Positions 36,094-52,425 of a stretch of 64,000 bases of DNA are shown one piece after another. How positions within the stretch are numbered: position 1 is the stretch's first letter; each line of letters starts with the position of its first letter. Made by a program: the position numbers and the translations under genes. The notes under the pieces are model-generated. The model did not search any database, was not told where the DNA came from, and saw nothing but the letters and a program-made list of their open reading frames with translations. Source of the stretch: Phycisphaerales bacterium (GTDB lineage: Bacteria; Planctomycetota; Phycisphaerae; Phycisphaerales; UBA1924); the NCBI GenBank assembly GCA_027019265.1, contig JALUWX010000032.1:1-64000 (forward strand), in the 5' to 3' direction.

Positions 36094-36201
36094 GGTCTGG
36101 AGTCTCCTTGTGGGAATGTATCGGAATGCGCGGACCATGTGCACAGAAAAACCCGGGATCGGGGGGGATCACGGGCTCGGGTCGGGGTTTGTCTCGGGTT
36201 C

Positions 36202-39200
36202 TTAGCGCCGGATGACGACTCGTCGCGCGTCCGGGGGGATCCGGAGGGGGGAGGAGGGGTCGGGCTGGATGCGCGTGCCGTCGATGGTGATGGAGGGGAG
36301 GACGGGGGTCATGGTGGGATTCATGAGGGGGTTGAAGTCGACGAGATAACCGTCCGGTGGTGCACACCCCTCCTCTATGTCGAGGGTGAGGGTGTCTCCC
36401 GAGCGCGAGAGGGTGTAGGAGAGGGACCCGAACCGGGTGATCTGTCGGCGGATCCCGACAGGCTGGTCGTGGTCGAGCCAATCGCGCATGACCCCCGCGC
36501 CGAGGACGATGGTGTCCTGGTCCTCGAAGGCGAAGATCGAGAGGATGGAGAGGATCGCGCCAGACCCGACCCAGGTATGGGGCATGTCCCCGACGAAGCG
36601 CGGGGGCTCGCGGTGCTCCCACGCGATCTCCCCCCACTGCTTCCATCCCTGGGGGTCTCGGAGGGTCATAAGCCAATCGAGGTATTGGTGGGCTCGTTCG
36701 CGCCAACCCAGACGGATGAAGGTCCCGATGAGTCGGACCTCGTAGGGGGTCATGTCGTTCCAGGGCTTGCCCTCGATGCGCCCTTGGGTGGAGGTCCAGG
36801 CGCGTTCGAAGGTGTTCCGGAGGAGGGTGTCATCGATGACGTGCGCTGCGCCCGTCGGGTAGTACGCGATCGCGGTGGAGGTAGCGTCGAAGTCACCGAG
36901 CTCGACACACCCGGGGACGTAGTTGATGTTGTGGTGTGTGGTCGCGCGGGTGATGGAATCAGAGAGGGACTGCCCGAACTCGATCGCGAGTTTCTCGAAT
37001 CGGACGCGGTCTGATTCGTGTCCGAGTTCATCGGCGAGTCGGACGGCGTCCCACAGACCCCGATCGATCCAGAAGTCGTCCCAGTAGGAGTGCATGGGTT
37101 TTTCGGAGTAGCCCTCGTGGCTGATGGATTCGGGCATGAGCCCGGCGCTGGCGCGGGCGATAGGGTCGGTGGTGTCCGTGTACTCGGGGGTGAGTCGTGT
37201 GTTGCGCATCATCTCGATGTAGTCAACAGCTTTCACGACGTTGGGGTAGAGCTTCGATGCGAGGGCTTTGTCGAAGTTCCCCCCCGCTTCGACGGCGTTT
37301 CGGATCGCGAAAATGAACTCGCCGGGCGCGTCGTTCTCGTCCACGGGGTCGGGTCCGCGGAAATCGACGACACAGGGGACTTTGCCGTTGTCGTATTGGT
37401 ACGGCGCGTACCAGGTGATGAAGCGTTTCGCGTCGTCGGCGCGTCCGAGCGCGATCAGCGCGGCGGAGGTCATCGCGCCGTCTCGAATCCAGGATCGTTC
37501 GTAGGAGCGGGACCCGGGCTGGATGCCTGGGCCGTCCACGTTGATGAGGATGTAGGCGAGGTTCGCGCGGAGGGTGTCCTGGAGGTCTTGGTGGGACTCG
37601 GGAAGCACGAGTTCGGTCGTGGTGAGGAGCTCGGTCCAGCGGGATTGTTCGTGGGCTTCGACCCGGGCGAAGGAATCGATTGATGGGGAGTCCAACTCGG
37701 CGCGATCGTTCATGGGGAGCGCGGCGATGATGGTGTGTGACCCGTTTGGTTCGAGGGTGAAGTCATAGAGCATCGCCGCGCTTGCGAATTGCGCGCTGTC
37801 GATGCTTGCGTTCGGGGCGCGGCGGGATGGATCGGCGAGTGCTTGGGTGAGGGGGGTGGCCGGGATGTCGGTGACGAGCGTGCTGGACGACGGTTCGCTG
37901 AATATCGCGAAGGGGGCGCTGTTGATCGTGATGGTGTCGTGCGCAGCGCGGGCGGAACTGACGGGGATGGTCCCTCCGACGGTGTTGAGGAACTGCGCTG
38001 CGGGGAGGACCTGGAAGGGTCGGGCAGCGAGCGCGAGGGTGAAGGAATGATTGACGTTCGTTGTGTTGGACAGGGTGTAGCGGACGAGCGCGATGTCGGA
38101 CCCGGAGAGGTCCGTGGTGAGGGGGGTGATGTCGAGGGTGAAGGTATCGTGGGTCCAGCGGGTGTCGGGGGTCGGAAGCCCGGGCGCGTGGAGGGTGTTG
38201 GTGATGTCCACATCGGCCCAGGTGATGACAGCGTTGTCTTTGATGACGAAGGGTTCGAGGGTTGGGCCTCGTTTGAAGGGCTCGATCGCGCCGTCGGCGC
38301 TGACGAGGGCTTCGTCGTGGTGCTCGGGGAGCCCGGCGACGGTCCAGGGGGAGAGCTCGGTGAAGGAACGGGGGTAGGCGCCTCGTGGCGCGAGCGTGGC
38401 GAGATGGGTGATGTAGTCGTTCGCGCCGGGGTACAGCTCAACGGGGGCGAAGGCGATCGCGCGGAGTGTCGCGTTGCCTTGGACGGCGATGCGGATGTGC
38501 TGGGCTTCGGTCTCGGGGGTGTGGACGGTGTTGTTCTCGCTCGGGTTTCGGAGCTGCGCGAGGGTTTGGTAGGACTGCGCGTCGATGGAGGACTCGATGG
38601 TGTAGGACTCGGGCGGTGTCTCCCAATCGAGGGTGATGGCGCTGAACTCGACGGGAGTGTCGAAGGTGAGCGCGAGGGTGTTGTTGTTTGTTGCGGACCA
38701 GGAGAGGCGGCCGTCGGGTGCGACGCGTCCGAGGTACTCGCTCCCGCTGCTCGCGCGGGGCTCGGTGGGTTTGGGTTCGGTGTCGGGGAGGCGCTCATAG
38801 CTGAGTTCATCGAGGTACAGCGAGCCCTTCCCGCCCTGGCTCGCGGTGACGACGATCTCGATGGTGTGGACGCGCTCGAGCGGCGAATCGTCCGGGCCCC
38901 ACGCGAAGGAGACGTGGCGCTTGCGGATGGACTTGGTCTCGTAGTCGCGTGGGTAATCGAAGTCGCGTTCGACGGCCCACCAGACGTTGTCGCCGGAGTC
39001 GTCCACGAGTTTAAACTCGAGTGTGTTTCGTGGTCCGGTGCCTTTGTAACGGAGCGCGAATCGGTAGTTGGGATCGAGGTCGAGATCGACCTGTTTGCGG
39101 ATGATGCAGTATCCGGATCCGGAGGTGAAGTCGTAGTCAATCCGAAGAACGCCGCCGTCCTCGTGAGTCGTCGCGCGGACCCCGTCGGCGAGGACGAGGT

Positions 39201-39333
39201 TCCAATCCGATGGATCGTCGAAGGTGTCGATCGGGGCGCGGGCGTTCGCGCTCGCGCATGCTCCGAGAACCGACGCGATCAGGATAAGGGTGTAGCGAAG
39301 GACGGCTCGCGAAGGCGGGGCGTGCACGCGCAT
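36202..39333 (-). CDS. Large glycoside-hydrolase-like lipoprotein with (alpha/alpha)6 domain
   Basis: 1043 residues. A lipoprotein signal (LILIASVLGAC) is followed by a carbohydrate-binding-like beta-sandwich (about 35-185, ALRYKGTGPRNTLEFKLVDD and SLYLDELSYE). A discoidin-like domain follows at about 200-295, then a large beta domain. From about residue 590 comes a six-hairpin domain: RSYERSWIRDGAMTSAALIA, YWDDFWIDRGLWDAVRLA and KPWNDMTPYEVRLIGTFIR, resembling glucoamylase/GH15-like and related families. The acidic residues in WIRDG, YWDDFW and WNDM are candidates for catalysis. The exact family and substrate are not clear. It starts 25 bases after the stop of the dockerin-tagged gene at 39359 and belongs to the lacI-led operon. 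Confidence 0.72.
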   Translation of the reverse strand: MRVHAPPSRAVLRYTLILIASVLGACASANARAPIDTFDDPSDWNLVLADGVRATTHEDGGVLRIDYDFTSGSGYCIIRKQVDLDLDPNYRFALRYKGTGPRNTLEFKLVDDSGDNVWWAVERDFDYPRDYETKSIRKRHVSFAWGPDDSPLERVHTIEIVVTASQGGKGSLYLDELSYERLPDTEPKPTEPRASSGSEYLGRVAPDGRLSWSATNNNTLALTFDTPVEFSAITLDWETPPESYTIESSIDAQSYQTLAQLRNPSENNTVHTPETEAQHIRIAVQGNATLRAIAFAPVELYPGANDYITHLATLAPRGAYPRSFTELSPWTVAGLPEHHDEALVSADGAIEPFKRGPTLEPFVIKDNAVITWADVDITNTLHAPGLPTPDTRWTHDTFTLDITPLTTDLSGSDIALVRYTLSNTTNVNHSFTLALAARPFQVLPAAQFLNTVGGTIPVSSARAAHDTITINSAPFAIFSEPSSSTLVTDIPATPLTQALADPSRRAPNASIDSAQFASAAMLYDFTLEPNGSHTIIAALPMNDRAELDSPSIDSFARVEAHEQSRWTELLTTTELVLPESHQDLQDTLRANLAYILINVDGPGIQPGSRSYERSWIRDGAMTSAALIALGRADDAKRFITWYAPYQYDNGKVPCVVDFRGPDPVDENDAPGEFIFAIRNAVEAGGNFDKALASKLYPNVVKAVDYIEMMRNTRLTPEYTDTTDPIARASAGLMPESISHEGYSEKPMHSYWDDFWIDRGLWDAVRLADELGHESDRVRFEKLAIEFGQSLSDSITRATTHHNINYVPGCVELGDFDATSTAIAYYPTGAAHVIDDTLLRNTFERAWTSTQGRIEGKPWNDMTPYEVRLIGTFIRLGWRERAHQYLDWLMTLRDPQGWKQWGEIAWEHREPPRFVGDMPHTWVGSGAILSILSIFAFEDQDTIVLGAGVMRDWLDHDQPVGIRRQITRFGSLSYTLSRSGDTLTLDIEEGCAPPDGYLVDFNPLMNPTMTPVLPSITIDGTRIQPDPSSPLRIPPDARRVVIRR

Positions 39334-39358: not shown

Positions 39359-41656
39359 TCAGGGACAACCCTGGATGAAACGATTCAGGAACAGGGAGAG
39401 GTCGAAGAAGTCGAACTCTCCGAAGGGGCGCGCGATGTCGGCGCGGGAATCTCGGTTGTGGTACGCGCTGAGGAACGCGGAGAGATCGAAGAAGTCGAGC
39501 TCTCCGAGGGGTGCGCCGTAGTCCGCTGGACATTCGGGTCGGTAGTCCACGGCGAGGACATTCGTCACAGACCCGGGCTCGATGAGCTCCGCGAGCCCGA
39601 TCGCGCCGATGACGACGTCGGGGAGCCCCGCGTCGGGTGGGGTGTATCCGGGATCGATGGCGGATCGGCGGTAGAGTATGGATGCGCCCGTTGCGAAGGT
39701 CGCGCGTGCGCCGCGCCGGTAGGCGTTGTATGCGCCAACGGTTGGTGCGGTGTCACCCAAGGCGCCGAAGGCCATGAGGGACGGGAAGGTCGTGACGTTC
39801 CCGGGGTGGTCGGAGAGGGAGTCGGCGTGGTAGCCCCCCCACTCGGGCTTGGTGGTCCCGGCGCTGAAGACGGTAGAGAAATCCGGCGTGTTGTCGTCCG
39901 TCCATCCTCCGTGGGACGCGAGGAGGTTGCGCATGTGGGTTTCCCAATCGGGGTCATCGCGCATGGCGCTCGATCCGATCCAGGGGTAGTGCGAGACGAA
40001 GGCTGGGAGATGACCGCCCGGCCAGTTCGTGGTGACGGGGAAGTTGTTGATGTAGGACGCGCTGGGGAGGGCGCTCCGATCGAGCCAGTAGTCGAGGGCG
40101 CTGCTGGAGTTCCCGTACATCGCGGCTTGTTCGATGAAGAGGACGGCTTCGTTGAACGCGCCGCTCCCGGACCCGAGGTCCGGGCCTCCGCTCTGGATCG
40201 CGCGGAAGTAGATGTTGTTCGTCCAGGGCTGGATGTAAGAGTCCCAGTTCTCGACCCGGTTGATGATGGTGTCGGCGGCGAGGACGATCTGGGGGTCATC
40301 GAAGTAGAAACGGCGCGCCCGATCGGCGGCCGTCACGATGAGCATGGTGCTCAGGGTTGCGTATTCATCGCTCCAGCCGGGCGCAGCGTTCCCTGTGAAG
40401 GGGTCGTACCAATGGTGCATGATCCCGTCGGCGGTAACCCGGGGAACGATCCCGTCGGGTTTGAGCCCGGCGTATCGGTCGAGGATGTCGCGGACGATGG
40501 GTGCGGAATCGGATGAGCCGTCGATCGAGTCCTTGACGAGGTGGAGCATGATGACCCACGCGGCGCCGTCGGGGCTCGGGGGGTGGAAGCGTGTGTTTCC
40601 GGCGATGACATCGGCGTCGGTGACCCACCCGCTGGGTCGGCCGTCGGCGGCGATGAGACCCTGCGCGAAGGTGACGGCCTGGTCGAACTCGTCGCGGAGC
40701 CAATCTTCGTAGTCGAGGTCGGGGTCGTCGGTGTCTCGGACGGATTCGATGGAGTCGTCCGACGCGAGGAGCATGGATCCGTCGGCGCTGATCGCGATAC
40801 CCGTAAGATCCGAGGAGGAGACGAGGTAATCGGATGGCGCGTACGCGAACAGCCCCGTGACCTGGAACCAGGGCACGAAGCGGACGCGGGCGTTGTCCCC
40901 ATCGCCCGCGCCCTGCGCGATGAACGCGCCTTCGTGCCAGACGTTGCCGTAGTGCTCGGAATAGGCGATCCCTCGCGCGTTGGAGAGGGCGCCGATGGTG
41001 TCGAAGGTCGGGGTGGCGTTGTCGAGATCGATTGCGTACAGGGTCGATTCGGTTGCAACGGTGACGGTGTTGATGCGCGGCGCGAGCGCAATCCCGACGG
41101 CGGGCTCGGCGCTTGGGATGCTCATCGTGCGCGAGAGGACCCCTGTGATCGAGTTCCGGAAGGCGTTGTAGATCCGGATGTTCCCGTCGATTGTTGAGAC
41201 CCAGAGCTCCCCCTTGTGGTGCAGAGCGGCCGGGGCTTGGCCCGAGAGGTCGTCGAGGTTCGCGCGAGCGAAGAGAGAGAGCTGTTCGCTCGTGGTGTCG
41301 TACCGGAGGATCGTGTCGGACCCGAGCCCGTCGGTGCTTGGTTCGTCGTCGGTCAGGATGATGAAGAGGGATCGTCCTGAGCTGGTCCATGCGAGGGCGC
41401 GCGGGCCGTCGGGTGATGTGTCGAGGGTCATCCACGGCGCCAGGGCGTTCAGTTCGGCGCGGGTGATGGTGTGGAGGAGGGTCTCTCGGACATCGCGGAA
41501 CTCGATGGTGTCGGTCGTGGTGTCGGCGCTTGCGTACCACCCGCTCAGACTCGCCGCGGCGATCGCGTCGGCGCGGGGAGCGTCCCCCCACTGCTGCGCG
41601 ACGGGGGCCGCGAAGGTTGTGCTTGCGATCAGGGTTGGAACAACGATGGAACGCAT
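39359..41656 (-). CDS. Secreted beta-propeller / (alpha/alpha) enzyme-like protein with dockerin-like module
   Basis: 765 residues. A signal peptide (MRSIVVPTLIASTTFAAPVA) is followed by a propeller-like part with repeated short strands (about 40-290: GELWVSTIDGNIRIYNAF, VGIALAPRINTVTVATESTL, LTGIAISADGSMLLASDD). A helical domain follows at about 310-690 (AAWVIMLHLVKDSIDG, MLIVTAADRARRFYFDDPQI, GAFNEAVLFIEQAAMYGN), like glucoamylase-type folds. The end is a dockerin-like pair with both calcium loops degenerate (ADYGAPLGELDFFD and ADIARPFGEFDFFD). The GAGGAG site overlaps the lacI stop codon 5 bases before, so the gene is co-transcribed with the regulator. ATG 41656 gives a signal peptide; the frame above it is a lacI shadow. 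Substrate unknown. Confidence 0.75.
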   Translation of the reverse strand: MRSIVVPTLIASTTFAAPVAQQWGDAPRADAIAAASLSGWYASADTTTDTIEFRDVRETLLHTITRAELNALAPWMTLDTSPDGPRALAWTSSGRSLFIILTDDEPSTDGLGSDTILRYDTTSEQLSLFARANLDDLSGQAPAALHHKGELWVSTIDGNIRIYNAFRNSITGVLSRTMSIPSAEPAVGIALAPRINTVTVATESTLYAIDLDNATPTFDTIGALSNARGIAYSEHYGNVWHEGAFIAQGAGDGDNARVRFVPWFQVTGLFAYAPSDYLVSSSDLTGIAISADGSMLLASDDSIESVRDTDDPDLDYEDWLRDEFDQAVTFAQGLIAADGRPSGWVTDADVIAGNTRFHPPSPDGAAWVIMLHLVKDSIDGSSDSAPIVRDILDRYAGLKPDGIVPRVTADGIMHHWYDPFTGNAAPGWSDEYATLSTMLIVTAADRARRFYFDDPQIVLAADTIINRVENWDSYIQPWTNNIYFRAIQSGGPDLGSGSGAFNEAVLFIEQAAMYGNSSSALDYWLDRSALPSASYINNFPVTTNWPGGHLPAFVSHYPWIGSSAMRDDPDWETHMRNLLASHGGWTDDNTPDFSTVFSAGTTKPEWGGYHADSLSDHPGNVTTFPSLMAFGALGDTAPTVGAYNAYRRGARATFATGASILYRRSAIDPGYTPPDAGLPDVVIGAIGLAELIEPGSVTNVLAVDYRPECPADYGAPLGELDFFDLSAFLSAYHNRDSRADIARPFGEFDFFDLSLFLNRFIQGCP

Positions 41657-41661
41657 GGGGA

Positions 41662-42714: not shown

Positions 42715-42732
42715 TGGGGATGATGATACCAC

Positions 42733-44262
42733 ATGAAAACGCTTACACGAACACAATTCGCCGTCAGTGTGCTTCTTGGTGGATCGATTTCCTCGATCGG
42801 ATGCGCGTCGTCGGCTGATCGGACCACGGTGAGTTCGGCGGATTCATGGTCCGTCGTGGACGCGAACACGCTTGTGATTGAGTCGGATCCGTCGATCCCG
42901 AGGCCGCCGTTCGTTTTCTCAAAGAACGACGAGAAGCTCCTCGACGAGATCCAACACGCGACCTTCGTGTACTTCTGGAACGCGGTTGCGCCGGAAACAG
43001 GGATGGTGTACGACCGGACGAGCAGCGATGTGGTGAGCGTTGCTGGGGTGGGGTTCCAGCTGGCCGCGCTCCCGATCGGGGTTGAGCGGGGGTGGGTGTC
43101 CAAGGAGGATGCGGAAGCCCGAACTCGGCTCATCATCGATTCGCTCTCGGATGCGCCGAGCAATCGGAAGGCGGGGTTGTTCTACCACTTCATCAACCCC
43201 CACGACGCGTCCGCGCGTCGGGTGGGCCGGGAGCTCGTGGTGAGCACGGTCGATTCGGCGCTGCTTTTCTCGGGGATGATCGTCGCTGGAGAGTATTTTA
43301 AGGGGGATCTGAAGCGGGATATTGATGCGTTGGTGGAGGCCGCGGATTGGTCGTTCTTCTTGGAGACTCCCGGCGGGGAAGCACCGGATGCGCCGTTCCT
43401 GAGTCTGGGGTGGAAGCCGTCCGCCGATGAAGTTCCGACCGGGGACGGGTCGTTGCTCCCGTTTTATTGGATCGATTCGGGAGATGAGCATCGGTTGTCC
43501 ACGCTGCTCGGGGTGTGTGCGCCGGATCCTGATCATCGGGTCCCGGTGAGCACCTATTGGCATCTCCGTCGGCAGATCGGGTACCACGAGGGTCAGGGGT
43601 ATGTGTCGTGGTTCCCGTACTCGGGGGCGCTGTTCACGGCTTTCTTCGAGCACCTGTTCGTGGATCGCGCGTCGATGGGGGTGGACGATCCGTCAGCGCA
43701 CGGGGTGACCCAGCGTGCGAAGATCGATTGGTGGGAGAACTCCCGTCGGCTCGTGAATCTCCATCGGGATCGCGCGATCGAGAACCCGCTCGGGCTCCCG
43801 ACCTTGGGTGAGCGTGCGTGGGGGTTCAGCGCGAGCGATGGGCCGGAGGGGTATCTGGTGTCGGCGCAGTATCCGTCGAAAGTCACGATGGACGGCGCAC
43901 GGGTGAATCTGGACTATGCGAACTGGGATCCGCAGGAGAACTGGGGCGACGGTGTGGTGGCGCCGTATGCGCCGGGGGCGTCGATCATGTTCGAGCCGAG
44001 GTATGCGGTTGAGGCGCTTCGTTTCGCGCGTTCGATTGAGGGTCCCGATGGAGAACCCGGGGTATGGCGCGGGGACTGGGGGTTTGCTGATGCGTACCGA
44101 CTCGGGGAGGACGGGAAGACGGACTGGGTGGCCGAGGATTTTGTCGCGATCAGCCAGGGCCCCCTGATTCTGGGGATTGAAAACGCACGGAGCGGGCTGA
44201 TCTGGGAGTTGTTCATGTCGAGCGAGGTCATCCGATCGGGGATCGCGCGTTTGGATGAATGA
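42733..44262 (+). CDS. GH144-like (glucoamylase family, COG5368) lipoprotein
   Basis: 509 residues with a lipoprotein signal (lipobox region ISSIGC, Cys24). The body matches the glucoamylase-like (alpha/alpha)6 family that includes GH144 endo-beta-1,2-glucanases: LLDEIQHATFVYFWNAV, GMVYDRTSSDVVSVAGVGF, KAGLFYHFIN, VSTVDSALLFSGMIVAGEYF cut here, WGFSASDGPEGY and the final FVAISQGPLILGIENARSGL. It is anchored to a membrane facing outside the cytoplasm. Cleavage of beta-1,2-glucan is plausible because a GH94 phosphorylase follows; other glucans are not excluded. The ATG coincides with a LacI-type operator (42734-42747). The signal peptide leaves little doubt about the start. Confidence 0.82.
   Translation: MKTLTRTQFAVSVLLGGSISSIGCASSADRTTVSSADSWSVVDANTLVIESDPSIPRPPFVFSKNDEKLLDEIQHATFVYFWNAVAPETGMVYDRTSSDVVSVAGVGFQLAALPIGVERGWVSKEDAEARTRLIIDSLSDAPSNRKAGLFYHFINPHDASARRVGRELVVSTVDSALLFSGMIVAGEYFKGDLKRDIDALVEAADWSFFLETPGGEAPDAPFLSLGWKPSADEVPTGDGSLLPFYWIDSGDEHRLSTLLGVCAPDPDHRVPVSTYWHLRRQIGYHEGQGYVSWFPYSGALFTAFFEHLFVDRASMGVDDPSAHGVTQRAKIDWWENSRRLVNLHRDRAIENPLGLPTLGERAWGFSASDGPEGYLVSAQYPSKVTMDGARVNLDYANWDPQENWGDGVVAPYAPGASIMFEPRYAVEALRFARSIEGPDGEPGVWRGDWGFADAYRLGEDGKTDWVAEDFVAISQGPLILGIENARSGLIWELFMSSEVIRSGIARLDE
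42734..42747. promoter_or_regulatory. LacI-type operator between lacI and the GH144-like gene
   Basis: TGAAAACGCTTACA is a near-palindrome around a central CG, of the kind bound by LacI/CcpA-family proteins. It begins at the second base of the GH144-like start codon and lies 20 bases upstream of the lacI start, so it can serve both divergent genes. Confidence 0.65.
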
Positions 44263-44289
44263 TTTCGTGTCACAATGGGGATTTTGTGG

Positions 44290-44308
44290 TCAGAAACGGT
44301 GTTTCTGA
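44290..44308 (+). terminator. Hairpin after the GH144-like gene
   Basis: TCAGAAAC and GTTTCTGA flank a 3-base loop (8-bp stem), 28 bases after the stop codon. No T-run follows, so it may be only a weak terminator or an mRNA-stabilising stem. Confidence 0.3.
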
Positions 44309-44351
44309 GCTCGAACCGGGACATCGAATCTTAAAAAAATCTACGTGGGTC

Positions 44352-44393
44352 TTGAATGGGGTCGGTTGATCCCGCACAATGTAACCGTTTTCA
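44352..44393 (+). promoter_or_regulatory. Promoter with overlapping LacI-type operator, upstream of the PEP-CTERM gene
   Basis: TTGAAT (44352-44357) and CACAAT (44375-44380) are 17 bases apart. The near-palindrome TGTAACCGTTTTCA occupies 44380-44393, over the expected transcription start. This is an arrangement in which a LacI-type repressor would block initiation. Confidence 0.6.
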
Positions 44394-44472
44394 GGGATCG
44401 GACCCGTTGCGACTCCGTGTGGGGCCGGGCCGGTCAGATGAAAGTGACAACGCGCAAGCGAGGAGAGAAATC

Positions 44473-45255
44473 ATGAAGAACACCATCAAACTCGGGATCG
44501 GGATCGCGATGTGCGCGGGGACGATTGCGACGGCGTCGGTGAGCGAGATCAACGGCTTTGAGGATGCGCCCCGCCTGTTCAACGATCGTCCGGGGAGCAA
44601 CCTGACCTACATGAGCAACTACGACGCGATGGGGTCGAGCGTGTCGTTCTCGGAAGACAACTACGGGACGGGCGGGTTCGCGAACCGTCACGCATCGTGG
44701 TTCTCCGACGGGATGGGGAACAAGGTCGATATGGACTACGCGGACGCGTTCGACATGCAGATGACGATGCGGATCAATGATGCATCGAGCGTTGACAACG
44801 TGGAGGCCGGTTTCCAGTTCGACCTGTTCGGGTTCGGACTCTTCGGGGTGCTCTCGAGCTCCGGCGAGATCGCCGCGTTCGGTTCGGTGCTTCCGTTCCA
44901 CTCGTTCGGTGCGGGTCTGTACAACGTGGGTGACGAGCTCATGCTCCGCATGGTTCACACTCCGGGCGCGGGCGAGTTCAGCGGGACCAACTCCACGATG
45001 GAGTACATGTACAACAACGTCACCCAGGGCACGGGTTGGGTGAGCTCGGGCGCGATCGACTTCACGACCCTTGAGGGCGGGATCCCCGATGCGTTCGCGG
45101 CGTTCGCCGGTGTCGGTGCGCAGATCAACAACCCCGACGCCATCGATGGCTCGGTCAGCATCGATTACTACGGGATCACGACCTCGGTCCCTGCGCCGAC
45201 GTCGCTCGCGATGCTCGGGCTTGCGGGTCTGGGCGCGGCGCGTCGCCGCCGTTGA
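44473..45255 (+). CDS. Exported PEP-CTERM-like protein of the glucan locus
   Basis: 260 residues. Signal peptide (MKNTIKLGIGIAMCAGTIATA), a Gly/Phe-rich beta-type domain of about 200 residues with no recognised family, and a C-terminal sorting signal (VPAPTSLAMLGLAGLGAA followed by RRRR). Such tails are recognised by exosortase-like enzymes and lead to surface anchoring or release. AGGAG stands 9 bases before ATG 44473. It has its own promoter and operator and lies between the GH144-like and GH94 genes. Binding of the sugar polymer is a plausible role but only inferred from context. Confidence 0.8.
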   Translation: MKNTIKLGIGIAMCAGTIATASVSEINGFEDAPRLFNDRPGSNLTYMSNYDAMGSSVSFSEDNYGTGGFANRHASWFSDGMGNKVDMDYADAFDMQMTMRINDASSVDNVEAGFQFDLFGFGLFGVLSSSGEIAAFGSVLPFHSFGAGLYNVGDELMLRMVHTPGAGEFSGTNSTMEYMYNNVTQGTGWVSSGAIDFTTLEGGIPDAFAAFAGVGAQINNPDAIDGSVSIDYYGITTSVPAPTSLAMLGLAGLGAARRRR

Positions 45256-45267
45256 TTCGGGTTGCTC

Positions 45268-45328
45268 TCTCCGGGGGTCCGCTCCCCCCGAGAACCACAC
45301 TTTGGTGTTCCGCTGAGAAGCGGGGCAC
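45268..45328 (+). other. Two hairpins between the PEP-CTERM and GH94 genes
   Basis: The first stem (TCTCCGGGGG at 45268-45277 with CCCCCCGAGA at 45284-45293, one mismatch) and the second (GTGTTCCGCT at 45305-45314 with AGCGGGGCAC at 45319-45328, two G-U pairs) follow each other. Neither has a T-run, so transcription probably reads through. They could protect the upstream message or lower expression of the downstream gene. Confidence 0.4.
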
Positions 45329-45368
45329 CGGTTTCGAGACGAACGACAACACTTGCGAGGCACGAGCA

Positions 45369-47816
45369 ATGACGCTCCAGAATCAGTACGGACGCTTCAT
45401 CGAGAACGGGAACGCGTACGAGATCACGGACCCGGACACGCCTCGGCCTTGGTCGAATGTGGTGAGCAACGGTCGTTATGGGTTCGCGGTGTCCCAGCAC
45501 GGGGCCGGTTTCTCATGGCTCGATCACTGCCAGCTCAATGTGCTGACATCGTGGCGCATGGACCACATCCGGGATGATCGGGGTCGGTTCCTGTACCTGT
45601 CGGACCTCGACGACACCTCGAAGGTGTGGTCGGTTGCGCCGCACCCGTGCCGGGCGGAGTTCGATTCGTTCCGCTGTATCCATCGCGCGGGGAGCACGAC
45701 ATTCGAATCGTCTCTGCACGGGATCAACGCGACATGGACCCTCGGGGTGGCACCGAGTGATCAGGCGGAGCTCTGGACCCTGACCCTCAAGAATGAATCG
45801 GATCGTCCCCGGAGGATCCGGATTGGCGCGTTCTTTCAGTGGTGCTGCGATGCGGCTCCTGACTCGACGCGCGAGTTCCATCGCTTGTTCTTCACGACGC
45901 GCTACGACTCGGATCGGAACGCGATCTATGCGACGAAGAACGTGTGGAACGCGCCATTCGGGAATGCTGACGATCACTGGAACCGGGGTTGGCCGTACGT
46001 TGCGGGGTTCGCGATGGCGAAGCACGACGGGGACACGCAATGGGCGACGGCGGACACCGAAGCGTTCCTCGGGAAGCGTGGGGATCAGCGCCGGCCGATC
46101 GCGATGACGGACGGGTGTGAATCGACGTTCGGGCGGTTCTCCGATCCGTGTGTCGGGATGGGCGCGGATGTTTCGATCGCTCCCGGCGAAACGATCACCC
46201 GGACCTTCGTGCTCGGGGTTGCTCCGGAGCAGGAGGAGCTGGAACGGACGATCGATGCGTTCTCCAACCCGGCCGCTGTGGAAGAAGCGATGGAAGCGGC
46301 CGCTTCGGGATGGGACGATCTGCTGAGCCCATCACGCGTTGAGTCTGAATGCGAGGACTTCGATCTGCTCAACAACCGTTGGCTCCCGTACCAAGCGATC
46401 AGCGCTCGGATCTGGGGTCGATCGGGGTACTACCAGCAGTCGGGCGCGTACGGGTTCCGGGATCAGCTCCAGGACTCGCAGGTCTGGCTGCTCCGTGAAC
46501 CTTCGCGCTGCAAAGACCAGATCATGCTCCACGCGCGGCACCAGTTCGTGGACGGGAGCGTGTACCACTGGTGGAACCCGCTCACGGAGACGGGGCTCCA
46601 CGATCAGTGCTCGGACGACTACTTGTGGCTCCCATTCATCCTGTGCTCGTACCTGCGCGAGACAGGGGATATGGGGATCCTCGACGAGACGGCGCCGTTC
46701 GTAGACGACGAAACTCCCGCAACGATCCGGGATCACGCGATGCGCTCGATCGAACGTTCGCTCTCCCGTCAGAGCGAGCGTGGGCTTCCGCTCATCGGGG
46801 ATAACGACTGGAACGACGGACTCTCGGCGCTGGGTGGAGGAGAATCGGTCTGGGTCGCGTTCTTCCTCATGATTATCCTCGATGAGTTCGGGAACGCGCT
46901 CGAACGCTCGGGTGACTCGGAGACCCCTCAGCGGTACGCGAAAGAACGGAAGAAGCTCCACGACGCGGTGCTCGCGCACGCATGGGACGGCGCATGGTTC
47001 CGTCGCGCGACGGACACCAACGGGCGCTGGCTCGGTTCGAAGGACTCGCTCGAGGGTCAGATCTTCCTGAACGCGCAGACCTGGGCGCACTTCGCGAACG
47101 CGGGCTCTCAGGATCAGCGAGACCAATCGTGGTCGTCGCTCAAGGACAAGCTGCTGACGGCGTACGGGCCTTTGCTGCTCGCGCCGGCGTACACGATCCC
47201 TGATCCGGATATCGGGTATCTCTCACGCTATGCGCCGGGGTCCCGTGAGAACGGGGGTGTGTACATGCACGCGGCGACGTGGGCGCTGATGGCGGCCGCG
47301 GGTCGTCGGGAAGCGGACACGGTGTCGTCGATCTGGAAGTCTGTGTCCCCCCCACTGCGATGCAACGGGGACAATGCGGATTCGTATGCGGCGGAGCCGT
47401 ACTGTCTTCCGGGGAACGTTGACGGGCCGCTGTCTACCTGTCCTGGGCGCGCGGGGTGGACGTGGTACACGGGGTCCGCTGCTTGGCTGAACCGGGTGAG
47501 CATCGAACACATCATCGGGGCTCGCGCGGAATGGGACGGGCTCCGGATCGATCCCTGCCCGATGCGTGAGCTCGGGAAGGTCCGCGCAACCCGTCAGTGG
47601 CGCGGACGGACGATCACGATCGAGTTCGATGCAACGACCTACAACCCCGAGCACGAGTGTGTCCTGTCGATGAACGGGAGCGTGCTGGGCGATACGATTT
47701 TAACGGAAGACATGATCCCCGAAGGTGCGAGCGCAACCGTGCAGGTGCGTTGGGACCCGGCGGAAGGATCGGTCGCGGAGCTCCGGGTGCAAAGCCGCGA
47801 GAGGAGCAGGACATGA
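45369..47816 (+). CDS. GH94-family disaccharide/oligoglucan phosphorylase
   Basis: Cytoplasmic phosphorylase that splits a beta-linked gluco-disaccharide or oligosaccharide with phosphate to give glucose 1-phosphate. The 815-residue protein has the family N-terminus ([30 protein letters not shown]), the barrel ([20 protein letters not shown]), the catalytic acid region [10 protein letters not shown] (from residue 477) and [31 protein letters not shown]. It lacks a signal peptide. Cellobiose phosphorylases are about this length; the beta-1,2-oligoglucan enzymes are often longer, so the linkage is open. ATG 45369 is chosen; the open frame from 45252 is not like GH94. Confidence 0.9.
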
Positions 47817-47860
47817 TCGACACGGGACGCGCACTCTCTCTTCGTTCCGGAGGACGACAC

Positions 47861-48637
47861 ATGACATCGAAGAACACACGAGCGTTTACGCTGATCGAGT
47901 TGTTGGTGGTGATCGCGATCATCGCGCTGCTGATCGGGATCCTGCTCCCCTCACTGAGCAAGGCACGACAATCGGCGCAGAACATCATCTGCCAGAACAA
48001 CCTGCGCCAGATCGGGCTCGGGATGCAGATGTATCTCGACGAGCAGAAGAATCCTCGCTACATCGATATGTTCCCGTTCGAGTTCGGGAAGGACGAGGTG
48101 AACCCGGTCACGGGGAACCACGACATCCGGGCGCAGCGTTGGAACGTGATGCGGGTGCTCGAGCCATACATGGGTGGTCAGGCGCAGGACGCGTTCATCT
48201 GCCCGGCGGCGCGGGGCGCGTCGTCGGTGCTCGACCAGCAGACCCGGCTCGGGATGGAGTTCGGTGGGCGTGTCCAGGTGCTCGACTACGACAACGACGG
48301 AGTTGAGGAATACAGCGAATACTGGTTCAACGACTCGCACATTTTCGAGGATCCGGTTTCGGGCTCTCGCAACTCGGGGGTCTCGGGGCAGCTCGTGCGC
48401 CGGGTCGCGAACCCGTCGGAGCTCGTGCTCGGGATCGACGCTGTCGACTGGATCCCGAGACACCGGGATCGTCAAGAGACGAACATCGAGGGACAGAGCT
48501 CGTCGGGCGCGAGCAACCTGCTCCGGGGTGATCTCCGGGTCCAGCAGATGTCCGAAGCGGAGTACATCCTCCAACGCGACAAGTTCGGCTCGGCGACCCA
48601 GTTCTTCAACTGGGGCCACTACTACCCCGAACCCTGA
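47861..48637 (+). CDS. Prepilin-like secreted protein of the glucan locus
   Basis: 258 residues with the same kind of head as the protein at 35386: MTSKNTRA, then [19 protein letters not shown] with Glu at +5. The rest ([20 protein letters not shown], then [15 protein letters not shown]) is typical of planctomycete prepilin-type families, with a Cys pair near residues 55 and 108. A GGAGG site precedes ATG 47861. It follows the GH94 gene by 44 bases and precedes the small membrane protein, so it is part of this operon. Function unknown; a role at the cell surface in polysaccharide capture is possible. Confidence 0.85.
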
Positions 48638-48664
48638 TCTCCAGACCACGGACCCGAGGCACGC

Positions 48665-49024
48665 ATGGGACTCAGAGACAAGCTGAACGAGAACCCGCAC
48701 ATCGCTTGGTCGATCACGGTTGTGGCCGTGCTCGTTGCGGGATTCTTCCTGTATCGATCGATGACCCAACAGGATGCGGACTCGATGGAACGCCGATCCG
48801 AGATGGTCACGATCCGTGACACCCTGACGGGTGATGAATGGGAGATGAACCGGGGTCAGTTCGAGCGACTGCTCATGACCCAGGACGGGCTCATCGACCC
48901 GGAGGGGGGGATCCCGAGCCAGTTCTCCGATGGGATGCCCGTCGGGGTGCTCGTGGACAAGAACGATTGGGAATCCACGGTCGAACGGATCAACGCGCTG
49001 AAGAAGAAGTACGGGCAGGACTGA
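48665..49024 (+). CDS. Small single-pass membrane protein
   Basis: 119 residues. One helix at about residues 14-31 (AWSITVVAVLVAGFFLY) and a small charged domain behind it (EMNRGQFERLLMTQDGLIDP, GVLVDKNDWESTVERINAL). No family recognised. It starts 27 bases after the pseudopilin-like gene with the same strand and codon use, and could be its partner. An analogous pairing is not obvious at 35386. Confidence 0.75.
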   Translation: MGLRDKLNENPHIAWSITVVAVLVAGFFLYRSMTQQDADSMERRSEMVTIRDTLTGDEWEMNRGQFERLLMTQDGLIDPEGGIPSQFSDGMPVGVLVDKNDWESTVERINALKKKYGQD

Positions 49025-49031
49025 GTCCCGA

Positions 49032-49048
49032 TCCTGATCGGATCAGGA
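49032..49048. terminator. Inverted repeat at the convergent gene ends
   Basis: TCCTGATC and GATCAGGA flank a single G, between the stop codons of the small membrane protein (49024) and the symporter (49043). No T-run on either side; it could be a weak bidirectional terminator. Confidence 0.3.
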
Positions 49049-50461
49049 CCCGGGCTGCTCTTCGCCGCGCCGTGCTTCGAGCTGGGCTTTGATCTCGTAC
49101 ATCCGCGCTTCGGAGAGCGGGTACTTCACGATCAGATAGAACGATCCGATCCCGAGGAGGATGGGGGTTCCGATCTCGATGATGCGCATCAGGAGCATGG
49201 TGCGCTCGGACTGGACATCGACCCCTTCCTGGAAGCCGGAGAGACTGATGAGCACCCCGGCGGCGAAATAGGCGCCGGCCATTCCCATCTTCATGAACCA
49301 CCAGAAGACGGCGTAATACGAGCCCTCGCTGCGCCGTCCCGTGTGGAGTTCGTCCTCGTCGCACACATCCGCGACCATCGCGCTCGCGAGGGTGAAGAAC
49401 ATGAGCATCCCGGCGCTGAGCATGACCGTGGGGATGACGAGGAGCCAGGGGTGGTCGGGGTTGTAGCAGACGATCTTGCTCAGCTGCGCGCCGAGCATCA
49501 GGCAGACGGCGAGCGTGAGCGTCCGGGTCTTGCCCATCGCTCGGCTGATCCAGTTGAGTGGGAAGACGGCGAGCACACCCGTAACAGCCCAAGCGGTTCC
49601 GATCCAGCCCATGAGCTTGGAGGCGTTCTCCTTGTCCCCTTCGAAGAGGTAGAAGATGGTGATGTAGTTCGCGAAGTTGTTGACGAGGTTGAACCCGAGG
49701 ACGACGGAGAAGATGATCCCGACGAGGATGAGGAATGTTGTGTTTCGCATCGTCATCTTGAGACGAGTCCACATGGGGATCCGCTCCTGCTCAGCGACAT
49801 GCTCGAACTGTCGTTCTTTGCATAGCGAGAAACACAGGATCGCGAAGATCACGACAATGACGGCGGCGAGGTATCCGACGTTGCGCATCCCGTCCACTTC
49901 ATCCCCCCCACCCCTGAAGAAAGGCATGTTGGCCATCGCGTAGAACCAGGGGGTGATCATCGCGCCGAGGTTCCCGATGAAGCTCTTGGCGCTGAAGAGT
50001 TTGGTGCGCTCGTGGTAGTCGGCCGTCATCTCCATCCCGAGCGCACCGTGGGGGATCTCGAAGATCGTGACGGCGGTGTAGAAGAGAAGGGACATCGCGA
50101 GGAAGTACCAGAACTGGGACATGGGGTCCCAGTCCCTCGGGACGGCCCACATCGCAACAAAGGTGATCGCGACAAGGAACCCTCCGAGGAGGATGTAGGG
50201 CCGGCGTCTCCCAAAACGGGTGCGTGTGTTGTCGGTCACGTGACCCATGATGGGATCGGTGATGGCATCCCAGAATCGGGGGACCATCTGCGCGACCCCG
50301 ACGAGGATGGCGCTGATCCCGAGCCCGACGTTCACGATCAGCCCGGAGAGCTGTCCCACGGAGTTAAAGAGCGCGATGGGGACGAATCCCCCGAGCCCGT
50401 AGGCGATGAGGATGAGCCAGGGGATCCGGTCACGTTTCGCCGTCGTGTGATGCTCAGACAT
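49043..50461 (-). CDS. GPH-family sugar:cation symporter (MFS)
   Basis: A twelve-helix transporter of the glycoside-pentoside-hexuronide group, importing sugars with protons or sodium. The 472-residue protein has the family features FWDAITDPIMGHVTDNTRTR (loop 2-3), RFGRRRPYILLG and YHERTKLFSAKSFIGNLGA, and the later VADVCDEDELHTGRRSEG. It probably brings the product of the outer glucanases to the cytoplasmic GH94 enzyme. An operator-covered promoter lies upstream (50499-50514). ATG 50461 is chosen; the 13 codons above it are not conserved-looking. Confidence 0.9.
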   Translation of the reverse strand: MSEHHTTAKRDRIPWLILIAYGLGGFVPIALFNSVGQLSGLIVNVGLGISAILVGVAQMVPRFWDAITDPIMGHVTDNTRTRFGRRRPYILLGGFLVAITFVAMWAVPRDWDPMSQFWYFLAMSLLFYTAVTIFEIPHGALGMEMTADYHERTKLFSAKSFIGNLGAMITPWFYAMANMPFFRGGGDEVDGMRNVGYLAAVIVVIFAILCFSLCKERQFEHVAEQERIPMWTRLKMTMRNTTFLILVGIIFSVVLGFNLVNNFANYITIFYLFEGDKENASKLMGWIGTAWAVTGVLAVFPLNWISRAMGKTRTLTLAVCLMLGAQLSKIVCYNPDHPWLLVIPTVMLSAGMLMFFTLASAMVADVCDEDELHTGRRSEGSYYAVFWWFMKMGMAGAYFAAGVLISLSGFQEGVDVQSERTMLLMRIIEIGTPILLGIGSFYLIVKYPLSEARMYEIKAQLEARRGEEQPGS

Positions 50462-50498
50462 GGAAACGATACTCGCTGGGTAGGGAAGGGGTGCGGGC

Positions 50499-50514
50499 AT
50501 TGTAAGCGTTTACA
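50499..50514 (-). promoter_or_regulatory. LacI-type operator over the -10 box of the symporter gene
   Basis: On the plus strand TGTAAGCGTTTACA (50501-50514) is a near-palindrome. On the minus strand its end forms part of TACAAT (50504-50499), a good -10 box, about 38 bases upstream of the start codon. The -35 box is weak (GTGCAA). Confidence 0.62.
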
Positions 50515-50708
50515 CGGGCGATTGCACGCGCTGATCGTGGATCCAAAGCGATGGGTTTGATCGAAACCATCCGATTTCAGACTTCAGCATCCTGTTTCTC
50601 GGAGATCGCTGGACGACCGAGAACCTGTGTGTCATATCTGGGGTGTTGCACAGCGTGATCGCCCCCAATTCATCGAACGGCGGCACACGTACGACGGAGG
50701 GACATCGG

Positions 50709-51272
50709 ATGCTCATACGAACAACACGAGCAATCGGGATCATCGGGATCACACTCTTTGGAGCGCACGCGGATGCTGGGCTGATCAGCCCGATCTCTGC
50801 GACGACCAGCGATCCGATCCTGTTCGGGGATCTTGGGAATCTCATCGACGGCGTGATCGACTTTGACTCGAACGTCGGGATCGGGAACACGACCAGCGGA
50901 GAGTTCAGCGGGCCGTACTCGATCGTGTTCGATCTCGGGGGTGTGTTCGATCTGACGGCGATGCATCTCTGGAACAATGCCGGCTCGATCGAGCTCGACG
51001 GGGAGGGGATCGACGGATTCGAGCTTCGATTCTTCGGCTACGACGACACGCTCATGGGGATGTACTCGGGGAACGCGATGGATGTCCTCGGCGAGCAGTC
51101 GTTCGAGTTTGATGTCCAGGGGATCAGATCGGTCGAGATGGTGATCCAATCGAACCACGCGCCCCTCGTGCGGGATTATGCGGCGCTCTATGAAGTTGCG
51201 TTTGTTCCTTCGGCGGGTGTGCTCGGGGTGATCGGGGCTGGGATGATCGGGATATCTCGTCGTCGGCGTTGA
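50709..51272 (+). CDS. Exported PEP-CTERM-like protein with discoidin-like core
   Basis: 187 residues. Signal peptide (about 1-23, TRAIGIIGITLFGAHADAG), a beta-rich domain with YSIVFDLGGVFDLTAMHLWN and GIDGFELRFFGYDD as in discoidin/F5-8-type modules, and a sorting tail (VPSAGVLGVIGAGMIGIS followed by RRRR). A GGAGGG site lies before ATG 50709. It stands alone with a strong terminator behind. Surface carbohydrate binding is likely for the fold but not shown. Confidence 0.75.
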   Translation: MLIRTTRAIGIIGITLFGAHADAGLISPISATTSDPILFGDLGNLIDGVIDFDSNVGIGNTTSGEFSGPYSIVFDLGGVFDLTAMHLWNNAGSIELDGEGIDGFELRFFGYDDTLMGMYSGNAMDVLGEQSFEFDVQGIRSVEMVIQSNHAPLVRDYAALYEVAFVPSAGVLGVIGAGMIGISRRRR

Positions 51273-51298
51273 TCGAACCGGAACATTGGATTGAAGAG

Positions 51299-51334
51299 AA
51301 AGGCCCCGTGTCTCTCGTGAGACACGGGGCCTTT
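51299..51334. terminator. Strong bidirectional terminator
   Basis: A perfect 16-bp stem from AAAGGCCCC to its complement with a TCGT loop lies between two convergent genes. The A/T ends of the stem give a T-rich tract on both strands (CCTTTAATTT on plus). Confidence 0.88.
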
Positions 51335-51366
51335 AATTTCATGACCGAGCCGATCCGCTGTCGCGT

Positions 51367-52242
51367 TTACGGGCAGCCCATGTCGTAGATCTGGAGGAAG
51401 GTCGAGACATCGAAGAAGTCCCAGTTGTTGTCGTTGTTCAGATCCGCGTTGGGATCCTGATTGCTCAGCGCCATAAGGAACGCGGAGAGGTCGAAGAAGT
51501 CGAGCTCGTTGTAGGGCTCGGCGAAGTCGGCTTCGTTACAGGGGCCGTTCTGATCGAGTTGGACGATGCAGAGGTCATCGAAGTAGACGGTGCCCATCGG
51601 CTCGGTGCCGGCGGAGAAGTCGCCGCCGTAGAACCGGAACGGGAGGACGGAAGCGCTGGTCGCGTAGGGGGGGAAGTCGCCGACGGCTTCCATCATCGCA
51701 TCGGTGACGGTGAAGGAGAAGGGCACCCACTCGCCTCCGGTTTCTTCAGCGCCGGGGATGTCGAGGAAGTTGAACTCGAACGAGGTGTAGACGGAGAAGT
51801 TCGGGGGTTCACGACGGAACTCGAGCTTCACGCCGACGACGGTGTCGTCGAGCATCTCGCCGGACGGGACGAGGTAGTACCCGGAGACGACGTAGTCACC
51901 CCCGAGGTAGGTGTAATCGGGATCGTACAGGTCGGAGCCGTCGGGCTGGAAGACGTTGGTGGTGAGCCCCTTGAATCGATCCGCGCCGGTGGAGGCCGGA
52001 GTCATCCGGATGGAGCGGTTCCCGGAGCGGACCTGCGCACCGGCGTCACCGATATCGACGTAGTCGCTGGAGCTGAGATTGAAGTCCTGCCACCCAAGGG
52101 GGAGGTCGGGGAACACGGGGTGCTGGGTCTCGAATCCGGGGTTGAAGAGCCGGTTTTCGTCATCGTTCGCGTTCGCAGCGGTGCCGACGAGCATGAACGA
52201 CGCCGCGAGGGACGCGACGAGTGTGTGTTTGGACATGATCAT
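51367..52242 (-). CDS. Secreted binding-type protein with dockerin-like module
   Basis: 291 residues. Signal peptide (1-26), a beta-sandwich of about 200 residues resembling carbohydrate-binding modules (LFNPGFETQHPVFPDLPLGW, RSGNRSIRMTPAST, GEWVPFSFTVTDAM, MGTVYFDDLCIVQL), and a dockerin-like pair at the C-terminus: degenerate ADFAEPYNELDFFD and canonical ADLNNDNNWDFFD, ending GCP. No catalytic motif seen. GGAG is 8 bases before ATG 52242; ATG 52236 is an alternative. It has its own promoter with LacI-type operator, so it belongs to the same regulon as the GH144-like and symporter genes. Confidence 0.82.
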   Translation of the reverse strand: MIMSKHTLVASLAASFMLVGTAANANDDENRLFNPGFETQHPVFPDLPLGWQDFNLSSSDYVDIGDAGAQVRSGNRSIRMTPASTGADRFKGLTTNVFQPDGSDLYDPDYTYLGGDYVVSGYYLVPSGEMLDDTVVGVKLEFRREPPNFSVYTSFEFNFLDIPGAEETGGEWVPFSFTVTDAMMEAVGDFPPYATSASVLPFRFYGGDFSAGTEPMGTVYFDDLCIVQLDQNGPCNEADFAEPYNELDFFDLSAFLMALSNQDPNADLNNDNNWDFFDVSTFLQIYDMGCP

Positions 52243-52278
52243 GGTTGGATCTCCACTAGGGGTACAGCTGTCACTGGT

Positions 52279-52306
52279 AATGTAAAGGTTTTCACGTCTG
52301 AATCAA
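52279..52306 (-). promoter_or_regulatory. Promoter with LacI-type operator, upstream of the binding-type protein
   Basis: On the minus strand TTGATT (52306-52301) and TACATT (52284-52279) are 16 bases apart. The near-palindrome TGTAAAGGTTTTCA (plus, 52281-52294) lies between them and overlaps the -10 box. Confidence 0.65.
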
Positions 52307-52425
52307 GCCCTGTGACGGGAGATCTGGGATTTCTTTCTCGGAAGTCGAAGGAGCCCGATCATTGCACAAACAAATGCCCTGGGGGATCACGACCAAACGC
52401 GGCCCGGTTCGGGTACGCTCTTGAT

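Follow-up and report, generated by a model that had tools for sequence, protein, structure and literature searches.

Which DNA sites does the LacI-family regulator encoded in a carbohydrate locus of a Phycisphaerales bacterium recognize, and which genes and which sugar might they connect? We addressed this question in positions 1-64,000 of contig JALUWX010000032.1 (assembly GCA_027019265.1), the 64,000-nucleotide stretch hereafter called the window, for which an original prediction had proposed four matching LacI-type operators and a glucan regulon. Our analysis makes it likely that a local LacI-family repressor controls a predicted beta-1,2-glucan utilization locus through four 14-bp palindromes (O1 to O4), the first of which would lie at a promoter shared by the regulator gene and the gene of a GH144-type enzyme.

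Results

Rarity and placement of the four sites

All four predicted sequences were found at their predicted positions (Table 1), with CG at the centre of three of them (O1-O3). When the window was scanned with the pattern TGWAANNNNTTWCA allowing one mismatch, five matches were obtained, namely the four sites, which are exact, and a match at 15018 with one mismatch. By eye, no other such site had been noticed in the window. In 100 shuffles of the window the mean number of matches was 0.64 +/- 0.79 and the maximum was 3, and none of the shuffles reached five. The whole genome (3,043,485 bases in 122 contigs, 91.5% complete) contained five exact matches to TGWAANNNNTTWCA and none to the mirrored pattern, which served as the control in our pattern counts; four were the reported sites and the only other one, at C83:11967, has an AT-rich centre. 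With G or C required at the two central bases (TGWAANSSNTTWCA), exactly the four reported sites remained, and allowing one mismatch raised the count to 14 (ten beyond the four) versus 4 for the mirrored pattern. The binomial probability that four of five sites fall within one 9.56-kb stretch is ~5e-10 if the stretch is fixed beforehand, and ~6e-7 as a scan bound. The outcome named as speaking against the prediction, a large number of equal-scoring sites at genes unrelated to the locus, did not occur: beyond the four, the genome offered only C83:11967 as an exact match and the ten with one mismatch; these positions, for which only reading frames were listed, may include weak extra targets of the regulon.

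Each site was predicted to lie at a promoter or gene start; O1, as the prediction had missed, is not merely close to such a start but lies inside its gene. The regulator gene, said to be located between the sites, is actually to the left of all four, 19 bp from O1. Three sites were also said to overlap or touch a -10 box. Reading by eye, we found CACAAT at 44375-44380, with TTGAAT 17 bp upstream, at O2, and on the minus strand TACAAT (50504-50499) at O3 and TACATT (52284-52279) at O4. The letters of these boxes were confirmed, and their assignment as -10 elements is based on this reading and on conservation. As a point against it, a sigma-70 promoter scan of 41600-52600, with 9 of 12 matches required, returned none (shuffle mean 2.0, standard deviation 1.3), so the boxes are weak by the E. 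coli standard.

Conservation at the same genes in relatives

Among 251 genomes of the order, sampled evenly from a larger group, a relative of the window LacI (E 1e-40 or better) was present in 33, and it was present in 4 of 10 genomes of the window's genus. The GH94 phosphorylase was sought in 22 genomes (E 1e-30); in the ten same-genus genomes LacI and GH94 were both present in four and both missing in six. All three same-genus relatives that carry LacI have O1, O2 and O4 with identical letters at the same genes. Pattern matches numbered 31, compared with 5 for the mirrored pattern, in six LacI-bearing genomes (four of the genus and two of the sister genus), and 34 compared with 31 in six same-genus genomes without LacI; three same-family genomes, G001, G007 and G012 (0, 1 and 1 matches, 2, 1 and 0 mirrored), were left out of both sums. 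The conservation at the same genes and the joint presence and absence of LacI and GH94 support the original proposal of a LacI regulon.

We also collected related loci and analyzed the best 80 of 296, mostly from metagenome-assembled genomes (MAGs) of Planctomycetota. These held 90 exact matches to TGWAANSSNTTWCA and none to its mirrored form, spread over 46 of the 80 loci. In 43 loci (L086-L128) taken together with window positions 30001-56000, 69 of 78 sites were at the start of a cluster gene and nine were not near one, and none was inside an aligned gene, the first and last 60 bases excepted. Sites were then counted gene by gene, one mismatch being tolerated, over an interval that began 300 bp before each start and ended 75 bp within the gene. 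The window itself was omitted from these counts, as were homologues with E values above 1e-20 (above 1e-6 for PEP-CTERM and dockerin) and starts close to a contig end. A site accompanied 24 of 25 PEP-CTERM homologues, 8 of 10 dockerin, 40 of 57 GH144, 49 of 75 LacI and 30 of 53 GH94 homologues, and 12 of 18 homologues of the 36202-39333 protein (A1043), while pseudopilin homologues had one upstream in only 1 of 31 cases. The mirrored control gave 0 for every gene except A1043, for which it gave 1.

Several observations weigh against such a regulon. One genome outside the genus (G244) has LacI and no GH94 match, 34 of the 80 loci are without an exact site, and a site was found at only 2 of 11 homologues of the major facilitator superfamily (MFS) transporter and 4 of 21 homologues of the 39359-41656 protein. 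Exact O3 is missing in three same-genus relatives (L036-L038), in which the transporter gene follows the dockerin gene in the same orientation with one site ahead of both; in the window 50709-51272 lies between them, and in two genomes of the sister genus (L039 and L040) the transporter carries its own site. Furthermore, the relatives share ancestry, and their counts are therefore not independent.

Two further observations were made in this collection. The more distant LacI/GH144 pairs L137, L148, L151-L156 and L158 have a shifted motif, TGACANCGCTTTCA, between the genes, which suggests an operator drifting along with its regulator. A locus of Phycisphaerales type with 61% LacI identity (L094, RHKP01000001.1) was found in a record titled 'Cyanobacteria bacterium CYA', which is probably a mislabelled MAG.

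A probable operator inside the GH144 start

A distance of 18 bp separates the LacI start codon from that of GH144, and O1 is made up of bases 2-15 of the GH144 gene. We took the ATG at 42733 as the start because the reading frame has a stop at 42724 and we saw no other start with a charged signal-peptide opening before the lipobox-like SIGC. Fifty-two LacI/GH144 pairs are adjacent and divergent (51 of the 80 loci and the window), the other 29 loci, e.g. L091 with 75% LacI identity, dropping out. A site with at most one mismatch was present in 42 pairs and overlapped the GH144 ATG in 21; in the 12 closest pairs (LacI identity of at least 57%, window included) the operator overlapped this ATG without exception. 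The residues encoded there vary (MKTLT, MKTIT, MKTFT, MKTFS, MKPFT and MKRFS), and the operator letters are mostly kept. Codon usage, determined from three genes per locus in 9 of the 12 loci (without L092, L094 and L097), showed that codons 4 and 5 belong mostly to the less used synonyms of these GC-rich genes. Since A/T-rich codons are preferred in initiation regions in any case, we regard the codon evidence as supporting, not decisive.

The 18-bp spacer between the two start codons contains -10-like boxes in both directions, GATGAT on the plus strand (42722-42727) and TATCAT on the minus strand (42728-42723), which share a symmetric ANNNT at 42723-42727. The spacer is 18 bp long in 11 of the 12 closest pairs and 19 bp in L087, and all 12 are flanked by the GH144 ATG and an open in-frame LacI start (ATG in 11, GTG in L097). 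In the eleven 18-bp spacers the most constant bases are G3, A6, A9, T10, T13 and A14 (each 10 of 11), and A9, T10, T13 and A14 belong to the two overlapping boxes. Ahead of the LacI start, NANNNT is found at a distance of 8 nt in 11 of 12 pairs (7 nt in L097), nine of the 12 having the form TAYCAT; ahead of the GH144 start it is found at 5-6 nt in all 12. Divergent starts at E. coli bidirectional promoters with a shared -10 are most often separated by 18 bp, according to the accessible part of PMC12825309, and at the sequence level a symmetric shared -10 with ~18 bp between starts was observed in 12 of 12 pairs. None of 28 other divergent neighbours in 258 kb of this genome, a rough background that excludes the LacI gene, is 18 bp apart from start to start. 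Because the spacer holds this symmetric ANNNT, we infer one bidirectional promoter and two (nearly) leaderless mRNAs, and O1 probably sits at this promoter. Leaderless genes in this genome are also suggested by the occurrence of TANNNT 5-9 nt before the ATG in 8 of 82 genes, compared with 9 over the thirty distances from 10 to 39.

The following results count against this arrangement. The start overlap is missing in 31 of the 52 pairs at one mismatch or fewer, and among the 21 that have it, the true start of L104 and L113 could be a second Met, and the site of L122 is poor. Codon 3 is in many cases a common one (ACG or CCG), and L090 and L087 do not use a rare codon at position 5. On the LacI side NANNNT is present at 5 nt as well in 11 of 12 pairs. 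In the 23 loci in which an operator with at most two mismatches overlaps the ATG, NANNNT occurs 5 nt before the GH144 ATG in 10 and 8 nt before it in 11 (5-7 nt in 18), and 4 of the 23 upstream stretches contain a Shine-Dalgarno (SD)-like 4-mer, three of them (L093, L095 and L096) among the 12 closest. Of the 82 genes, only 2 combine TANNNT at 5-7 nt with the lack of an SD-like 4-mer. Because the -10 registers are ambiguous and SD-like 4-mers occur in some loci, the leader length of 0-2 nt is one that we infer.

These results leave some room for a reading in which genuine sites go with separate, leadered promoters of GH144 and LacI, and the start overlap is a by-product of the signal-peptide opening ATGAAA, which gives one half-site for free. 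In its favour, the promoter scan was empty, few genes follow the strict leaderless rule (2 of 82), and the operator stays ahead of the start in several less closely related loci, such as L041, in which GH144 has a leader with an SD-like GGAGGGGAGG and the operator precedes the ATG, 7 nt after TAGACT (by eye). However, the second half-site is also kept, mostly by minority codons (9 of 12 loci), the overlap is present in all 12 closest pairs, and with an 18-bp spacer each promoter would be pushed inside the opposite gene. Separate promoters are therefore, in our judgment, unlikely. For the shared promoter that we prefer, the one example of L041 suggests an operator whose position follows that of the promoter, so that it ends up in codons once the leader has disappeared.

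The predicted substrate

The sugar is most likely beta-1,2-glucan, because the locus encodes a GH144-type lipoprotein, a synthase-like GH94 protein and a protein (39359-41656) that matches a GH194 beta-1,2-glucanase. The term glucan in the original prediction was right as far as sequence tells, and it can be narrowed to this polymer. Clan residues of the GH144-type protein were matched by eye to a GH144 alignment with solved relatives. The acid Glu (E252) is kept in 53 of 55 rows (one X and one gap), the candidate base (D174) in 55 and F301 in 53 (two gaps); the accessible part of PMC12102758 names these residues of the SGL clan (acid Glu, candidate base and Phe) and lists 8xul (XcSGL) and CpSGL as GH144. 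The region of the clan Tyr (Y367 of XcSGL) was not alignable; at Y395 the 55 rows have Tyr in 15, a gap in 15, Phe in 14 and others in the rest. The top PDB match of this protein, 4gl3, is labelled only 'putative glucoamylase'.

The nearest PDB entry to the GH94 protein is a cyclic beta-1,2-glucan synthase (407 bits vs 306 for cellobiose phosphorylase). The GH94 supersandwich and catalytic domains are present, and D480-W481-N482-D483, which we take to be a feature of GH94 phosphorylases, is invariant in 12 of 12 sequences. Against the substrate assignment, similarity to 5h3z, presumably a sophoro-oligosaccharide phosphorylase, is only weak (26 bits).

For the 39359-41656 protein, the family profile matched PgSGL3, a GH194 beta-1,2-glucanase (4e-8). 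The top Foldseek match of its predicted model (mean pLDDT 75, weak in 493-559) was 8xuk, the PgSGL3 entry (E 1.3e-9, TM 0.61 by target), and the other 49 matches listed are by name mostly WD40/NHL propellers, on the N-terminal half. E503, F553 and Y609 are invariant in 16 of 16 family members; the first two were matched to 8xuk in the profile alignment and the Tyr by eye. However, the candidate general base of PgSGL3, Asp148, aligns to a Ser (Ser436) that is invariant in 16 of 16 relatives, and because of this replacement we did not assign the protein to GH194; it may represent a separate glucanase family. The model of the 36202-39333 protein (pLDDT 85) resembles GH94, GH116 and GH15 folds and matches no single family. 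PDB searches with the single 765-aa and 1043-aa sequences returned nothing useful at E values up to 1; the family profiles did match.

The regulon could be right and its substrate an oligosaccharide or a beta-glucan of another linkage (1,3 or 1,4), since GH94 covers many specificities, the A1043 protein fits no family and the enzyme activities are predictions. The presence of two SGL-clan-like proteins and a synthase-like GH94 in one locus argues otherwise, and we consider a different substrate rather improbable and beta-1,2-glucan the better candidate.

The regulator

The window protein belongs to the LacI family, with a LacI helix-turn-helix and a periplasmic-binding-like sugar domain, both Pfam profiles scoring above cut-off. 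Its best PDB match is of the CcpA type and its recognition helix, SxATVSR, is invariant in 17 of 17 aligned sequences; it scores far below the cut-offs of the NCBIfam RbsR and CcpA models. A plasmid search with this protein gave 4174 records, each with less than 60% identity.

LacI-family proteins that act as activators or with a co-repressor are found beside repressors released by an inducer, and the window protein could be of either kind. The four sites cover a putative -10, a start or early transcribed sequence (by eye), where a bound protein would block polymerase, so that only a slim chance is left for these modes. Slightly slimmer still is the chance that another CcpA-like or global LacI-family protein binds the sites while the window LacI senses something else. 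A recognition helix of this common CcpA type could allow a paralogue to bind the motif, and 12 LacI candidates were noted in this genome at first look, eight of which were scored. However, only the window protein reached E 1e-40, the exact sites cluster at this locus and in relatives adjoin this LacI gene, and the pattern is not enriched relative to its mirrored control in same-genus genomes that lack this gene. Chance palindromes were rejected as next to impossible by the shuffled and mirrored controls in the window, the genome and the 80 loci. The local, inducer-released repressor remains the account that we favour.

Genes of the locus

The features of the locus are listed in Table 1. Lipobox and signal-peptide readings were made by eye; they gave a lipobox-like Cys24 (SIGC) in the GH144-type protein, and no signal peptide was seen in the GH94 protein. 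The transporter has an alternative start at 50500, abutting O3. Pseudopilin-like genes occur twice in this sugar locus, at 35386-36144 (from its own sequence alone) and at 47861-48637; the latter follows GH94 in many relatives and is probably co-transcribed with it. Gene 50709-51272, between the transporter and dockerin genes, looks PEP-CTERM-like by eye and had no Pfam or NCBIfam match.

Table 1. Operators, spacer and genes of the predicted beta-1,2-glucan locus (window coordinates).
Feature	Position	Strand	Details
Operator O1, TGAAAACGCTTACA	42734..42747		Bases 2-15 of GH144 gene (ATG AAA ACG CTT ACA = MKTLT)
Operator O2, TGTAACCGTTTTCA	44380..44393		PEP-CTERM gene 79 bp downstream; first base is final base of -10-like CACAAT
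Operator O3, TGTAAGCGTTTACA	50501..50514		MFS gene (-) starts 39 bp downstream; overlaps minus-strand TACAAT
Operator O4, TGTAAAGGTTTTCA	52281..52294		38 bp upstream of dockerin gene (-); overlaps minus-strand TACATT; centre GG, not CG
Spacer between LacI and GH144 start codons, 18 bp	42715..42732		Putative bidirectional promoter core
LacI-family regulator, 350 aa	41665..42714	-	PF00356 1e-17, PF13377 2.6e-29
GH144-type endo-beta-1,2-glucanase (predicted), predicted lipoprotein	42733..44262	+	PF10091 4.5e-37; PDB 4gl3, XcSGL 8xul, 5gzh
PEP-CTERM surface protein, 260 aa	44473..45255	+	PF07589 just below cut-off
GH94 phosphorylase (predicted), 815 aa	45369..47816	+	PF17167 1.9e-97, PF06165 1.7e-59
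Pseudopilin-like protein, N_methyl + DUF1559	47861..48637	+	Profile matches
GPH-type sugar:cation symporter (MFS)	49043..50461	-	PF13347 3e-73; TIGR00792 194 bits, below cut-off 231
Secreted dockerin-bearing protein, 291 aa	51367..52242	-	NF041540 4.3e-6, 27 bits, just below cut-off 29
Secreted beta-propeller + SGL-clan-like (alpha/alpha)6 domain + dockerin	39359..41656	-	Downstream of LacI
Secreted CBM32/F5-8C protein (A1043) + GH94/GH116/GH15-like beta-sandwich + (alpha/alpha)6 fold	36202..39333	-	No family

Discussion

We propose that, without inducer, a LacI dimer would occupy O1-O4. At O2-O4, the promoters of PEP-CTERM/GH94, of the transporter and of dockerin would be covered at their -10 or start region. 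O1 would span +2 to +15 of the GH144 gene, provided that the A of the ATG is the first base transcribed, and would simultaneously lie at about -20 to -33 relative to the LacI start codon. The primary lac operator is centred near +11, a position that O1 would resemble. With LacI and GH144 expressed from one bidirectional promoter with a shared -10, and both mRNAs having a leader of 0-2 nt, a single operator would close both directions and would have to be written into codons 1-5 of the GH144 signal peptide. The inducer that frees the repressor would be a fragment of beta-1,2-glucan, in the simplest case sophorose or a short sophoro-oligosaccharide. Surface glucanases would cut the polymer, the GPH transporter would import the fragments and GH94 would phosphorolyse them.

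The regulon appears ordinary in kind, the single unusual element being an operator inside the target start at a putative bidirectional promoter with leaderless or nearly leaderless transcripts. It shares with the local sugar regulons of the LacI family in the accessible part of PMC4052901 an even palindrome, a CG centre in three of four sites (a CG centre was reported there for 1173 of 1303 regulators surveyed), a regulator beside its targets, apparent autoregulation and a local catabolic gene set. It differs in that O1 is in coding sequence, where less than 1% of the surveyed sites were located; 'planctomyc' had 0 occurrences in the main text of that survey as far as accessible. CcpA and its catabolite-responsive (cre) sites resemble our case in the closest solved regulator, the SxATVSR recognition helix and, judged by the cre consensus, the letters of the sites, but here four exact sites stand in one locus rather than in a global set, and the CcpA model score is far below cut-off.

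The spacer is comparable to the shared -10 bidirectional promoters of PMC12825309 (accessible part), with a symmetric -10 between divergent genes and a distance of 18 bp, although that distance is between transcription starts there and between start codons here, where the transcription starts are putative; our locus additionally has a LacI-type operator in the first codons of one gene. In the csoR-cueA divergon of Bradyrhizobium, as given in the accessible part of PMC5057107, a repressor gene is likewise divergent from its target, with overlapping -10 elements and one box for both directions, and a leaderless regulator mRNA was mapped by rapid amplification of cDNA ends. It differs in that the CsoR box is on the shared -10 and not in target codons, that the target has a leader of 42 nt, and that a metal and not a sugar is involved. 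Finally, beta-1,2-glucan enzymes and clusters (GH144, GH162, GH189, GH192-194 and SOGP), as covered in the accessible part of PMC12102758, share with our locus a GH144-type enzyme, a GH194-like domain and a GH94-superfamily phosphorylase; our locus differs in a GH94 nearest to cyclic glucan synthase, in its dockerin, PEP-CTERM and pseudopilin parts, and in a defined LacI-type operator set. Among the matches listed in a literature search (titles and abstract starts, few subscription journals covered), none described this locus or arrangement or an earlier operator set for beta-1,2-glucan use in Planctomycetota, and 'gh144', 'laci' and 'sophoro' had 0 occurrences in the accessible main text of a paper on Phycisphaerae genomes (PMC11266412).

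On balance, we lean towards a conserved dual-coding operator in a Phycisphaerales clade, in which the primary operator is formed by codons 1-5 (M-K-x-[LIF]-[TS]) of the main target's signal peptide. A bidirectional promoter with two leaderless mRNAs would force the lacO1-like +1 to +15 region into coding sequence, and one dimer would shut both target and regulator. If this is true, the sites would form an operator set for the use of beta-1,2-glucan in Planctomycetota, a phylum with few cultured members, and the breakdown of this polymer there would gain a regulator and operators that can be tested and a likely inducer. It would also be a clear comparative case of a secreted enzyme whose first codons show a constraint from DNA binding, and a natural test case for repressor action on a bidirectional promoter with leaderless transcripts.

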